Positions 29,204 through 36,616 of a stretch of DNA of 64,000 bases are shown piece after piece. A program made the position numbers and the translations under genes. The notes under the pieces are model-generated. The model searched no databases. It was given only the letters and a program-made list of their open reading frames with translations, and was not told where the DNA came from. Source of the stretch: Sedimenticola selenatireducens (GTDB lineage Bacteria; Pseudomonadota; Gammaproteobacteria; Chromatiales; Chromatiaceae). Location: assembly GCF_007625115.1 (NCBI RefSeq), contig NZ_VMNH01000008.1, positions 1 through 64,000 on the forward strand, in the 5' to 3' direction. The first letter of the stretch is position 1; each line of letters begins with the position of its first letter.

Positions 29204-29322
29204 GTTCCTGCAATCCTCAAGCTATTCTGTTAGTCAGAGAGACACTCTCTCCGGCATGCAAAGTACTTCAACGAAGCGTGCAAGTATCTGGAAGAAACTC
29301 CGCATTCGAACACCCAAAGCTA

Positions 29323-29343
29323 CCTTCTCCAGCGTGGAGAAGG
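29323..29343 (-). promoter_or_regulatory. Hairpin in the dsrC-dsrM intergenic region
   Basis: A perfect 8-bp stem, CCTTCTCC / GGAGAAGG, has a five-base loop and lies about 60 bases after the dsrC stop in a 196-bp gap. No T-run follows, so it is more likely a stabilising, processing or attenuating structure than a full terminator. Such a structure could help dsrC transcripts exceed dsrMKLJOP levels. Confidence 0.5.
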
Positions 29344-29399
29344 CCACTTTGATCCGCCCTCAGATACTGCGTAGAGGACGGTAACCGCTAACACTCGAC

Positions 29400-32000: not shown

Positions 32001-32039
32001 TATTACCTCCAAAAACTCTAGTATCTGAATCTATTATTT

Positions 32040-32083
32040 AAACCGGCATGCCGGTTTGAGGACCCGTTGATGATCAGCGGGTC
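32040..32083 (-). promoter_or_regulatory. Two tandem hairpins in the dsrA-dsrB intergenic region
   Basis: An 18-bp perfect palindrome AAACCGGCATGCCGGTTT (32040-32057) is followed on the plus strand by GACCCG...CGGGTC (32061-32083). On the mRNA (minus strand) both lie between the dsrA stop and the dsrB ribosome-binding site. No T-run follows, so they look like processing or stabilising structures and not a terminator. They may tune dsrA relative to dsrB. Confidence 0.55.
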
Positions 32084-32096
32084 ACCACCTGTGTAT

Positions 32097-33341
32097 TTAT
32101 TGAGCAGCCTGACGCTCGTTCCACTTGGCCGCCTCGCCTTCCCAATCGTCGGTACGGACGTACGGGTTGGTACGAGGTTGATTGATCATATTAGGATCAA
32201 TCTCGATATTCAGGCCTTCAAGGAAGTTAGTCAGACCAATCCGCTCAATCATCTCACCCGTACGCTCGTGTTCCAGCGCATTCTCAGCGAAGAATTCAAG
32301 AATCTCGGTACCCAGCTCTTCCAACCATTCGAAATCGTCGTCTGATTCCAGCTTGTGGAAAGGCACGATTACAGTGCCCATCAAATCACCAATTTTCAGG
32401 GTACGCTTACCACCCACCAGGATGCTGACGCCACGGTCATCACCCGGTGAAAGCGCCTTGGTCATGACATTGATGCAGTGCATACAACGAACACAATTGG
32501 GGTTGTCAACGGCGAGTGTGTCATCATCATTCAGTGACAGTGCCTGGGTAGGACAGCGGGTGATCACGTTATCAATGATGTACTTACGTCCCTTGTTGGT
32601 GACGTAGTTTTTCACTTCAGCCTGATCAACCTTCATGTCATCACGCCAGGTACCGATCATGGATACGTCAGCACGCTGGATGGAGTTCATGCAGTCATTG
32701 GCACAACCTGAGGCCTTGAACTTCAGTTTGTAGGGGAGCGCAGGACGATGCATATCATCCAGGTTAGCATTTACACAAGTGCGCATAGCACGTGCTTCAT
32801 CAAAGCAGGACTGCTCACAACGCGCCGCACCTACACAGGACATGCCGGTACGTACCGCTGGACCTGCGCCGCCCATATCAAAGCCCATCTTATTGATGGC
32901 ATCGAAGGCTGGCTGAACATTCTCAGTGGTACAACCCTGGAACATAATGTCACCAGACTGGCCGTGGAATGCGATCAGGCCTGAACCATACTCTTCCCAG
33001 ATGTCACAGAAATCACGAATGGTTTTGGTGTCGTAGTGCATGCCAGGAGGCGGCATAATACGCAGGGTGTGGAATTCGGCAGCAGCTGGAAACAGCGGCT
33101 TATTGTTGGCATCTTTCAGTTCGGTGAAGCGGGGAATAACACCACCACCATAACCGATAACACCCACGGTTCCACCCTTCCAGTATCCCTTCTTGGTTTC
33201 GTAGGATGTTTCCAGCTGGCCCAGCAGGTCAACCATCATGTCGTTGTCTTTGGCCAGGCGCTTGAGTCCGGTTACGAAGCTCGGCCATACGCCGCTCTCC
33301 AACTGATCAAGCATGGGGGTATCATGCATCGGTTTCGCCAT
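32097..33341 (-). CDS. dsrA: DsrA, reverse dissimilatory sulfite reductase alpha subunit
   Basis: A 414-residue subunit with siroheme/Fe-S motif cysteines in CVGAARCEQSCFDEAR, MRTCVN and KASGCANDCMN, and a ferredoxin domain with CPTQALSL and CVRCMHCINVM. The TRCPTQA and MSCVGAARCE forms and the whole locus (dsrEFH, dsrL) point to the oxidative type. It is the first gene of the cluster. GGGAG precedes the ATG. Its promoter must lie in the 497 bp before the divergent 33839 gene. Confidence 0.96.
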   Translation of the reverse strand: MAKPMHDTPMLDQLESGVWPSFVTGLKRLAKDNDMMVDLLGQLETSYETKKGYWKGGTVGVIGYGGGVIPRFTELKDANNKPLFPAAAEFHTLRIMPPPGMHYDTKTIRDFCDIWEEYGSGLIAFHGQSGDIMFQGCTTENVQPAFDAINKMGFDMGGAGPAVRTGMSCVGAARCEQSCFDEARAMRTCVNANLDDMHRPALPYKLKFKASGCANDCMNSIQRADVSMIGTWRDDMKVDQAEVKNYVTNKGRKYIIDNVITRCPTQALSLNDDDTLAVDNPNCVRCMHCINVMTKALSPGDDRGVSILVGGKRTLKIGDLMGTVIVPFHKLESDDDFEWLEELGTEILEFFAENALEHERTGEMIERIGLTNFLEGLNIEIDPNMINQPRTNPYVRTDDWEGEAAKWNERQAAQ

Positions 33342-33838: not shown

Positions 33839-34015
33839 ATGCTCCTGTTAAGTGAGGTCCTGATACAAAGCCCTGATGTGGACTCTTTTGAGGAGCTCAT
33901 TGAACTAATCAAAGTACGCCGTCAATCCGAAATGTTTTTTCGGATAGATGTAAAGCCCCCCTTCAGTGATACACCGGAAGATTGGGAAGACCGTCTCGAA
34001 GCGGCGTTTACCTGA
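33839..34015 (+). CDS. Small acidic protein (58 residues) divergent from dsrA
   Basis: The ATG at 33839 has GAGG seven bases upstream and the frame is open to TGA at 34015. The product starts MLLLSEVLIQSPDVDSFEEL and ends EDRLEAAFT, amphipathic with an acidic bias and one basic patch (KVRRQ). It is not a family I recognise. It is the first of three same-strand genes beginning here (with the TPR-like and Cas6-like genes, 27 and 26 bp gaps), so it is probably the leader of that operon. It is short enough to be missed by length-limited gene finders. Confidence 0.55.
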   Translation: MLLLSEVLIQSPDVDSFEELIELIKVRRQSEMFFRIDVKPPFSDTPEDWEDRLEAAFT

Positions 34016-34042: not shown

Positions 34043-34747
34043 GTGAAGTATCTGCAAACAGAAGCCATCATGGGAGATAACGACTCCGCAGAAGATGCTG
34101 TACCTTCTACCCAAAAGGTCGAATTGCATCTGGCCGAGCTGGAACAACAGCTTGCCAAGCTAAGTCCAAATGCCCCAGAGAGTGAAAAAACCCAACTTGA
34201 GCTAGATTGCGGCTATGCATTGCTTGAGCTGAACCGGTTTGATGAAGCATGGTCACTTGCTCGAAGGGTTTTCGATCAGACCCTTGAAATGACCCAATGG
34301 CAACAAGCCGTTGAGGCTTGCGACATCATGTTTCAGTCGGAACAACCCGATTCAATTCCTGCGCTTGCGCAAGGTATCTGGCTCAGCGTCACCTTCCCAA
34401 TAGATCCCGAATTGACCGTAGCGATGTTGCAACATCTGATTGATGAAACCCCAGACCGATCAGATGGTGCCGCCGTGGCTGCCGCTGTAGCCAACTACAT
34501 CGTGGATATCCGCGCCGATGAAAACAGCCGGGAGAACCTGCTTTTCTTTACAAACCAATTGCTTGGACAAGTAGCCCGTCGCCACAGCCAGGTAGAAGAA
34601 CAGGATATTTTTGATTTTTGGGTACAACAGCTCGAACTGGATGATCCGGGAAAATTCCTCCCGCGACTGGCAACCGTATTAGATGTACTGGTTAGTAATA
34701 ACTGGTGGTACGACAAAGACAAACTTCGAGAACAAATTCCGGATTAG
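34043..34747 (+). CDS. TPR-like helical protein of unknown function
   Basis: A 234-residue soluble, all-helical, acidic protein. One clear tetratricopeptide-like unit (ELDCGYALLELNRFDEAWSLARR, near residues 53-75) follows a coiled-coil start (HLAELEQQLAKLS). The later helices are TPR-like but degenerate. The proposed start is GTG at 34043, with AAGGA ten bases upstream; an ATG nine codons later lacks a site. It lies between the 58-residue gene and the Cas6-like gene and is likely co-transcribed with both. Such repeats usually bind proteins, so it may be an adaptor for one of its neighbours. I do not recognise a named family. Confidence 0.7.
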   Translation: MKYLQTEAIMGDNDSAEDAVPSTQKVELHLAELEQQLAKLSPNAPESEKTQLELDCGYALLELNRFDEAWSLARRVFDQTLEMTQWQQAVEACDIMFQSEQPDSIPALAQGIWLSVTFPIDPELTVAMLQHLIDETPDRSDGAAVAAAVANYIVDIRADENSRENLLFFTNQLLGQVARRHSQVEEQDIFDFWVQQLELDDPGKFLPRLATVLDVLVSNNWWYDKDKLREQIPD

Positions 34748-34773: not shown

Positions 34774-35433
34774 ATGTACTGGGAAGAAGAGACAAATGAA
34801 GAGGGCTTTATCATACCGGAGGATGTGATTGACCTGCAGTTCAAGGTGATCTGCCCTACGCTTCCGGTCGATCACGCATGGCACTTGGCACAAGCAATCG
34901 AACAAGTTCTTCCCTGGTTTAATGATGAAGCAGCAGTAGGACTCCATCTTATCCATGGCGCAGAATCAGGCAATGGATGGGAAAGACCTGAAGACGCTGA
35001 CGCCTTGCTTCATCTTTCTAAACGCACCCCCCTGACACTCCGGCTACCCATCGCACAGGCAGATGAAGCCCTAGAATTAATAGGGCGTACGCTGGATATT
35101 GCGGGCCACAGCATGCAGATTTTATCGGCCAAACAGAAAAAACTTGCGATGAGCCGTTTTCTCTACTCCCGTTATATCGAGATAGACCCGGAACTCTCTG
35201 AAGATCAGTTTATCGCCTGGGCCGTCTCGGAGCTTAAACAGATGGGACTGCGTTTCAAGAAGATCCTCTGTGGTAAAAGCCATCAACTGCAAAGACCGGG
35301 CTGTCCCATTCACACCCGCAGCCTGCTGGTCGCTGAACTCCCCTATGAAGATGCCATAACGCTACAGGAACAAGGGATGGGTAACCATCGATCGCTTGGC
35401 TGTGGTATTTTCTTACCGCAGAAATCCTTCTGA
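34774..35433 (+). CDS. Solitary Cas6/Cmx6-like protein without CRISPR
   Basis: A 219-residue RAMP-fold protein that resembles the type I-MYXAN Cas6/Cmx6 family. It has an N-terminal beta strand with DLQFKVICPTLPVDHAWHLA (His near 34 and 37), LTLRLPI followed by an AGH(S/x)MQI strand, and the C-terminal glycine-rich RNA-binding loop QGMGNHRSLGCGIFLP (residues 200-214), the diagnostic Cas6 feature. Cas6 enzymes cut precursor CRISPR RNA at hairpins. Here there is no CRISPR array and no other cas gene in 64 kb. The gene is in a dsr-divergent operon, so an RNA target other than a CRISPR transcript, or a lost nuclease role, is likely. The assignment rests on motifs seen by eye. The start at 34774 was preferred over an in-frame start that overlaps the upstream gene. 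Confidence 0.72.
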   Translation: MYWEEETNEEGFIIPEDVIDLQFKVICPTLPVDHAWHLAQAIEQVLPWFNDEAAVGLHLIHGAESGNGWERPEDADALLHLSKRTPLTLRLPIAQADEALELIGRTLDIAGHSMQILSAKQKKLAMSRFLYSRYIEIDPELSEDQFIAWAVSELKQMGLRFKKILCGKSHQLQRPGCPIHTRSLLVAELPYEDAITLQEQGMGNHRSLGCGIFLPQKSF

Positions 35434-35594: not shown

Positions 35595-35939
35595 ATGTCT
35601 TATGAATACAACGGCAACACCCTGGAGGCCAACGATAACGGCTATCTGGTTAATCACGAAGACTGGAACGAAGATGTAGCGGGAATCATTGCCGCAGCAG
35701 AAGGTATCACCTTGTCTGAGAAGGCATGGGATGTGATTAACTATTTGCGCGATGAGTATTTCAATAACAATGGCAACCAGCCGAATGAGCGCAACATGGT
35801 GAAACACTTCAAAGAGGTCTGGACTGACCTGGACAAAGTGGATGCAAAATCACTCTACGAGCACTTCCCCATGGGACCAGCGAAGCAGGCGGGTAAGATT
35901 GCCGGACTTCCCGAAACCAAACGTAAGGGCGGCTATTAA
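35595..35939 (+). CDS. DsrC/TusE-family paralogue lacking both C-terminal cysteines (RspA type)
   Basis: A 114-residue protein that aligns with DsrC along its whole length: NGNTLEANDNGYLVNHEDWN matches DsrC's NGKSFETDEEGYLVNLSDWE, and GPAKQAGKIAGLP matches GPGKQACRFAGLP. Both arm cysteines are gone (Cys to Gly in the first, and the tail ends KRKGGY). Such DsrC-like proteins without cysteines are known as RspA and are thought to be regulatory or structural rather than sulfur carriers. It therefore cannot form the trisulfide. GGAGG lies in front of the ATG. It stands about 160 bp after the Cas6-like gene, with an AT-rich gap. Confidence 0.92.
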   Translation: MSYEYNGNTLEANDNGYLVNHEDWNEDVAGIIAAAEGITLSEKAWDVINYLRDEYFNNNGNQPNERNMVKHFKEVWTDLDKVDAKSLYEHFPMGPAKQAGKIAGLPETKRKGGY

Positions 35940-36013: not shown

Positions 36014-36616
36014 TCACTGAACTGAAATCAGTCGTGCATCTTCTGCATAGTCACACAATATAGCCTGCACCCGATCCTGCCAGAGCTTGCCAAATTGACT
36101 GGCTTCTTCAGGGGTTGCCTTGCCAGATAACACCTTTGAAAAAAGCGTGCTCATCTGCGGATCAGCCGGCACAAAACTCGAATCATAGTGCAGCGAAACC
36201 ATCTGGCCGGTATCTTTTCTGGTAAGCCGGACAAGGGTAGCGATTTCATTATCAAATGAAAGCAGGTTGCGGCGATCAAACTGACCCGCCAAACCGTGAA
36301 ATCCACCCTTATCGGTAGCACCGGTTATAAAGGACAGCACATTCGCAATAACACCACACACCCCTTCACCTATCGACTGCTGCATCTCAACAATAACTTC
36401 ACCCCGAACAGGTAATGCATCGCCATAAAGGGCCTTTAGCCCTTTCCGTGCCATCAGGAATGCCCCCGCAACCGTCGGACAGGAGTGTCCCGCCAATTTG
36501 ACCACATCAAGATAATCTATCTGGATCACGCCCTTTTCGAAGACCCCCAGACAAGCAGACAGTGGATCTTGTAATACAATGGATTCAACGCGATCAAAGA
36601 AACTGGGGTATTGCAT
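36014..36616 (-). CDS. FmdE-domain protein
   Basis: A 200-residue protein with the FmdE fold motifs GHSCPTVAGAFLMARKG (near residue 60) and IGEGVCGVIANVLSFITGA. FmdE was first seen beside molybdenum formylmethanofuran dehydrogenase, but many bacterial members lie in unrelated contexts and their function is not established; cysteines in HSCP and GVCG could bind a metal. The ATG at 36616 has GGAGAG four bases upstream. It is on the opposite strand to its neighbours and converges with the DsrC-like gene. Whether it belongs to sulfur metabolism is an inference from position. Confidence 0.82.
   Translation of the reverse strand: MQYPSFFDRVESIVLQDPLSACLGVFEKGVIQIDYLDVVKLAGHSCPTVAGAFLMARKGLKALYGDALPVRGEVIVEMQQSIGEGVCGVIANVLSFITGATDKGGFHGLAGQFDRRNLLSFDNEIATLVRLTRKDTGQMVSLHYDSSFVPADPQMSTLFSKVLSGKATPEEASQFGKLWQDRVQAILCDYAEDARLISVQ

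Follow-up and report, generated by a model that had tools for sequence, protein, structure and literature searches.

Why is a gene of the Cas6 family, whose members usually cleave CRISPR RNA, found back to back with the genes for sulfur oxidation? The question arises from a 64-kb stretch of the Sedimenticola selenatireducens genome, referred to here as the window, in which an open reading frame of 219 aa at 34774-35433 (+ strand) lies divergent from dsrA. This dsr-linked Cas6-family protein and its gene are named here as Cas6x and cas6x, respectively. To our knowledge, no conserved role of Cas6 in core metabolism, independent of CRISPR, has been described, and no mention of Cas6 at dsr was found in the literature searched, which left most subscription journals outside. 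The control of reverse-dsr sulfur oxidation is, as far as we know, also poorly understood. The analysis below leads us to favor, with some reservation, the view that a Cas6 protein left CRISPR to serve sulfur oxidation as an accessory factor, one that binds and probably cuts RNA and acts together with a DsrC paralogue.

Cas6x is a Cas6 homologue

Profile searches of Cas6x returned the Pfam Cas6 family PF09559 with an E value of 1e-58 (199 bits, curated cut-off 26.7) and the NCBIfam model cas6_cmx6 (TIGR02807) with 122.1 bits, above the equivalog cut-off of 98.85. Six PADLOC Cas6 models matched as well, and the glycine-rich loop GMGNHRSLGCG was located at residues 201-211. The Cas6 pattern and the likeness to Cmx6 pointed out in the initial annotation were thereby confirmed. 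The only solved relative recovered by sequence at E <1 was 8fcj, the Cas6 of a type I-B CAST (E 6e-12; 2e-23 in profile comparison).

The structure predicted for residues 1-219 (pLDDT 89) gave 8fcu_B as the first Foldseek match (E 5e-17), and the top 46 matches were all Cas6 proteins or CRISPR effector complexes. Structure comparison of the model showed the two-ferredoxin Cas6 fold, with 8fcj_B ranking first (Z 24.4, rmsd 2.0, 198 residues), followed by Pyrococcus Cas6 and Cse3. Because the profile, sequence and predicted-fold matches agree, the assignment of Cas6x as a true Cas6 homologue is secure on modeled structure and sequence comparison.

cas6x is located with dsr genes and without CRISPR genes

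Upstream of cas6x on the same strand are sm58 (33839-34015, +), encoding a 58-aa small protein of no known family, and a gene for a TPR-like helical protein of 234 aa (34043-34747, +). The gaps between the three genes are 27 and 26 nt, consistent with the apparent operon proposed initially, and dsrA (32097-33341, - strand) heads the sulfur-oxidation operon transcribed in the opposite direction. The next gene after cas6x, overlooked in the initial annotation, is dsrC2 (35595-35939, +), which encodes a DsrC paralogue without C-terminal cysteines and is the most constant neighbor of cas6x. An FmdE-like gene (36014-36616, -) lies downstream of dsrC2, a position shared only by close Sedimenticola relatives. 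A promoter scan gave fewer sites than expected by chance, and the search of the window for known RNA families found one tRNA only.

Searches for cas genes covered the window genome (4.03 Mb, completeness 99.99%). Cas1, DevR-type Cas7 and PF10040 Cas6 were not found, and the Cas3 core matched only generic helicases far below the cut-off; the same sub-cut-off matches turn up in all 14 control genomes. Adaptation or effector genes represented by Cas1, DevR Cas7 and the Cas3 core are thus missing elsewhere in this genome, and no CRISPR-like array was detected in the 64-kb window or the related dsr loci searched. In the window and at related loci, the neighbors of cas6x are dsr genes rather than cas genes or an array, in line with the initial annotation of the 64 kb. 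At one related locus (L138, positions 1-237), a 60-bp unit is repeated in tandem four to five times at the contig end, upstream of sm58-cas6x; it was considered as a CRISPR repeat and rejected. No viral relatives of Cas6x were found, and its plasmid relatives are cyanobacterial proteins annotated as Cas6/Cmx6 with 23-26% identity.

The presence of cas6x follows dsrA and not Cas1

In the family of the window genome, cas6x was found in 104 of 116 genomes; an order-wide search, overlapping with this set, found it in 188 of 210. dsrA was present in 101 of the 104 family genomes with cas6x (97 at E <1e-40 and four more in which a contig end cuts dsrA) vs 1 of the 12 without (Fisher p 5e-12). The sole dsrA-positive exception among these 12 (G039:C19, L176) is near-complete and carries a full dsr operon with no sm58, TPR gene or cas6x in view. 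Strong Cas1 matches were found in 59/104 and 4/12 genomes, respectively (p 0.14). The presence of cas6x therefore follows dsrA and not Cas1.

The gene order is similarly stable. Sixty same-family loci were examined, and after six second, divergent Cas6 copies were set aside, dsrA was divergent to cas6x in 52 of the remaining 54 copies. cas6x is conserved as a single copy at this position. In the exceptional locus L054, an intact cas6x is located away from dsr while sm58 and the TPR gene remain there; in L062, no dsr genes lie close to the cas6x operon. Among the best 80 of at least 567 named relatives, sm58 was found at 78 loci, dsrC2 at 73, dsrA at 66 and the TPR gene at 52, the loci without dsrA including short contigs and Beggiatoa-type loci. 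The named relatives include Sedimenticola, Thiodiazotropha, Thiogranum, Thiohalomonas, Parabeggiatoa, Thiomargarita and Marithrix; carriers include animal symbionts and giant sulfur bacteria.

The same arrangement was recovered at greater distance. A phylum sample of 397 genomes contained six cas6x matches at E <1e-30, all in the class of the window genome and one of them in the window genome itself; of its 39 dsrA genomes, cas6x was present in 6/6 of this class and 0/33 of other classes. In the five other matches, which represent distant families (31-40% identity), dsrA divergent to cas6x and then dsrC2 was found in 5/5. Another order, probably former Betaproteobacteria, carries cas6x in 46 of 250 genomes, with dsrA, cas6x and dsrC2 together at 30/30 loci and DUF6967 too at 26. 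Across this part of Proteobacteria, nearly all sampled genomes with dsr also retain cas6x alongside it. This conservation near dsr without CRISPR genes, across hundreds of genomes, suggests that a CRISPR piece was repurposed in energy metabolism and strengthens the earlier idea of a domesticated Cas6.

A tree of 62 sequences split 51 dsr-linked rows from 11 CRISPR-type rows by a branch with 100/98 support, so that Cas6x does not group with CRISPR-linked Cmx6. Six of the 11 CRISPR-type rows come from the window's own family and group with cyanobacterial CRISPR Cas6; four of these are ~8 kb from a Cas1 gene, and the other two are CRISPR-type by tree placement only. These results bear on the view that Cas6x continues to mature CRISPR RNA in trans from distant arrays, its dsr position being incidental. 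Such a role would fit the score of Cas6x above the Cmx6 cut-off and the occurrence of Cas1 in many family genomes, but cas6x tracks dsrA and not Cas1, the window genome lacks the CRISPR genes searched for, and some genomes have a second, CRISPR-type Cas6. We regard it as very improbable. The simplest account is that a Cas6 entered the dsr locus a single time, long ago, and has been passed on with it since.

dsrC2 is the most constant neighbor of cas6x

The dsrC2 product matches the DsrC-family profiles PF04358 and TIGR03342. No cysteine was present within the last 24 residues in 124 of 133 dsrC2 matches, the nine others including at least one true dsrC picked up instead (L086). Without C-terminal cysteines, DsrC2 should therefore not carry sulfur as DsrC does; it is presumably linked to the so-called RspA proteins. 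In the other cas6x-bearing order, 23 of 24 cas6x-bearing dsr loci have two DsrC-family genes, whereas more than one was found at 0/21 dsr loci without cas6x. The word "lone" used initially for cas6x thus holds with regard to cas genes and fails with regard to dsrC2. That cas6x is so consistently paired with a DsrC paralogue expected to be unable to carry sulfur suggests a sensor or adaptor function, by which RNA handling would be tied to the sulfur relay.

The other neighbors are less tightly associated. sm58 and DUF6967 were each found at 15 of 21 dsr loci without cas6x and are, for this reason, companions of dsr rather than obligate partners of Cas6. The TPR-like gene is missing from Thiogranum-type loci and from the other cas6x-bearing order; neither its product nor sm58 is a constant companion of cas6x. 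Foldseek gave no significant match for the TPR-like protein, and structure comparison gave a best Z of 14, as usual for helical repeats. A hint of Cse2 in 3/29 members (E 0.01 at best) was rejected.

Two further features of these loci were observed. Genes for a small DUF6967 (PF22295) protein are repeatedly located divergent from dsr (L171-L174, L189-L193, L218-L247), with or without cas6x, and a TauD-like dioxygenase gene is found between dsrA and sm58 at loci without cas6x (L189, 8511-9446; L192, 5447-6427).

Conserved residues point to RNA binding and possibly cleavage

Alignment of close relatives showed that G201, G203, G209 and G211 of the glycine-rich loop are kept and that Arg84 and Arg90 are invariant. 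His34, just ahead of helix 1, is invariant in 135/135 close relatives and is also present in 11/11 CRISPR-type copies; from this position it is likely to be the catalytic residue. In the other cas6x-bearing order and its kin, position 34 is His in 27/33 copies, Tyr in 4/33 and Asn in 2/33, and cleavage may therefore be dispensable in the six replaced copies. His58 is near-invariant among dsr-linked copies and rare among CRISPR-type copies. The NGWERP insert at residues 67-72 is clade-specific. Ka/Ks was 0.10-0.15 for cas6x, 0.02-0.05 for sm58, 0.04-0.06 for dsrC2 and 0.03 for dsrA, with several Ks values close to saturation; cas6x is under purifying selection.

Together with the fold, these residues make RNA binding by Cas6x likely, and RNA cleavage is plausible. 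Cas6x could instead be a non-catalytic regulator that leaves its RNA uncut and, by clamping it in the Cas6 fold, sets how stable it is or how well it is translated; the structured RNA in question might be the leader of cas6x itself, a dsr mRNA or an sRNA. The kept fold and glycine-rich loop would suit a clamp, as would the replacement of His34 in 6/33 copies of one group with the dsr layout unchanged and the fact that the CAST Cas6, which among solved structures is nearest to Cas6x, has Asn where His34 aligns. However, an invariant His34 and a nearly invariant His58 exceed what a pure clamp would need, and we consider this alternative unlikely, though worth keeping in mind. A further alternative is that Cas6x has lost RNA binding and serves as a protein scaffold contacting only Dsr proteins such as DsrC2. 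It draws on dsrC2 being the tightest linkage of cas6x; the retention of the loop, both arginines and the histidines argues against it and makes it improbable.

The dsr hairpins are independent of cas6x

The initial annotation had proposed hairpins in the dsr transcript as the target of Cas6x. The intergenic structures exist: in the window they lie in the dsrA-dsrB gap (32013-32096, -) and the dsrC-dsrM gap (29204-29399, -), and both gaps are strongly structured, with median z of -3.0 (93 sequences) and -2.6 (73 sequences), respectively. Other dsr gaps have z near 0, except dsrB-dsrE, where 24% are under -2. By a simple hairpin call, 78/78 window-type loci have a dsrC-dsrM hairpin, as do 21/23 loci from the second order with cas6x and 16/19 that lack cas6x; the corresponding counts for dsrA-dsrB are 81/94, 9/24 and 16/21. 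Since they are common in dsr operons without cas6x, the hairpins are independent of it, and their role as the target is weakened.

Direct processing of dsr mRNA through recognition of these two hairpins is accordingly an explanation to which we give little credence. Besides the strong structure of both gaps, it can call on second dsrAB copies without adjoining cas6x, which in six genomes have an 11-27 nt gap and no stable hairpin, and on a slight excess of similarity between hairpins of the same genome over permuted pairs (p 0.0004, with no control for GC or ancestry). Against it are the frequency of hairpins without cas6x, the low dsrA-dsrB count in the other order and a hairpin sequence not conserved between genera; a generic intercistronic stabilizer accounts for the hairpins. 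Binding or cutting of dsr mRNA by Cas6x at another site is possible.

Two sequence features were considered and rejected: a repeat-like sequence shared by both hairpins of one genome, for which only a weak excess was seen, and a CCGGG...CCCGG stem as a feature of the dsrC-dsrM gap, present in 20/78 gaps only. The dsrC-dsrM hairpin is near-universal in the proteobacterial dsr operons examined, with its structure kept and its sequence not, and is perhaps a stabilizer of dsrC mRNA. The second dsrAB pairs mentioned above, about 65-73% identical and without cas6x, occur in Thiodiazotropha and Lamellibrachia symbionts (L259-L263, L266). A second dsrA of 83-90% identity occurs in Sedimenticola and some relatives (L255-L258, L264, L265; G000:C41:62156-63391 in the window genome), and no true dsrB was found beside it.

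A model for Cas6x function

In the model that we favor, the gamma/beta-proteobacterial lineage of reverse-dsr sulfur oxidizers took over an RNA-binding protein of the Cas6 family from CRISPR, probably in a single early event, and the gene would then have been inherited with the dsr locus. Most probably, Cas6x binds a single cellular RNA or a few of them and would cut these beside the recognized structure via the ancestral helix-1 histidine. The only candidate targets examined, the dsr hairpins, could not be tied to cas6x. Cas6x would work with the cysteine-poor DsrC2 encoded directly downstream, and together they would adjust, after transcription, how the sulfur-oxidation machinery is expressed or used. 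The co-occurrence of cas6x with dsr and dsrC2 rather than CRISPR is observed directly; the partnership and its regulatory output are inferred. The most specific form of the model, in which one exaptation in the distant past turned an endonuclease of CRISPR RNA into a conserved RNA-processing regulator of dissimilatory sulfur oxidation, coupled to the state of the sulfur relay by the cysteine-poor DsrC paralogue, is offered tentatively. The conservation of cas6x with dsr makes the control of reverse-dsr sulfur oxidation a testable question.

Comparison with known systems

Cas6x resembles the type I-MYXAN Cmx6 (TIGR02807, PF09559) in profile, length, fold, glycine-rich loop and the His at the start of helix 1. 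It differs in having no adjoining cas genes or array, a tree group of its own and dsr-related partner genes; further differences are the conservation of His58 and the NGWERP insert found in relatives of the window. The Cas6 of type I-B CAST (8fcj, 8fcu) is the closest solved structure, with 25-28% identity and a Z of about 24, but belongs to a Cascade-transposition complex and has Asn aligned to His34. Cas6e (Cse3) and Pyrococcus Cas6 share the two-ferredoxin RAMP fold with Cas6x (Z 10-16), whereas their identity is 8-16% and both are dedicated pre-crRNA endonucleases. DsrC2, finally, is like the DsrC/TusE family in its profile matches and unlike it in lacking the C-terminal cysteines of DsrC.
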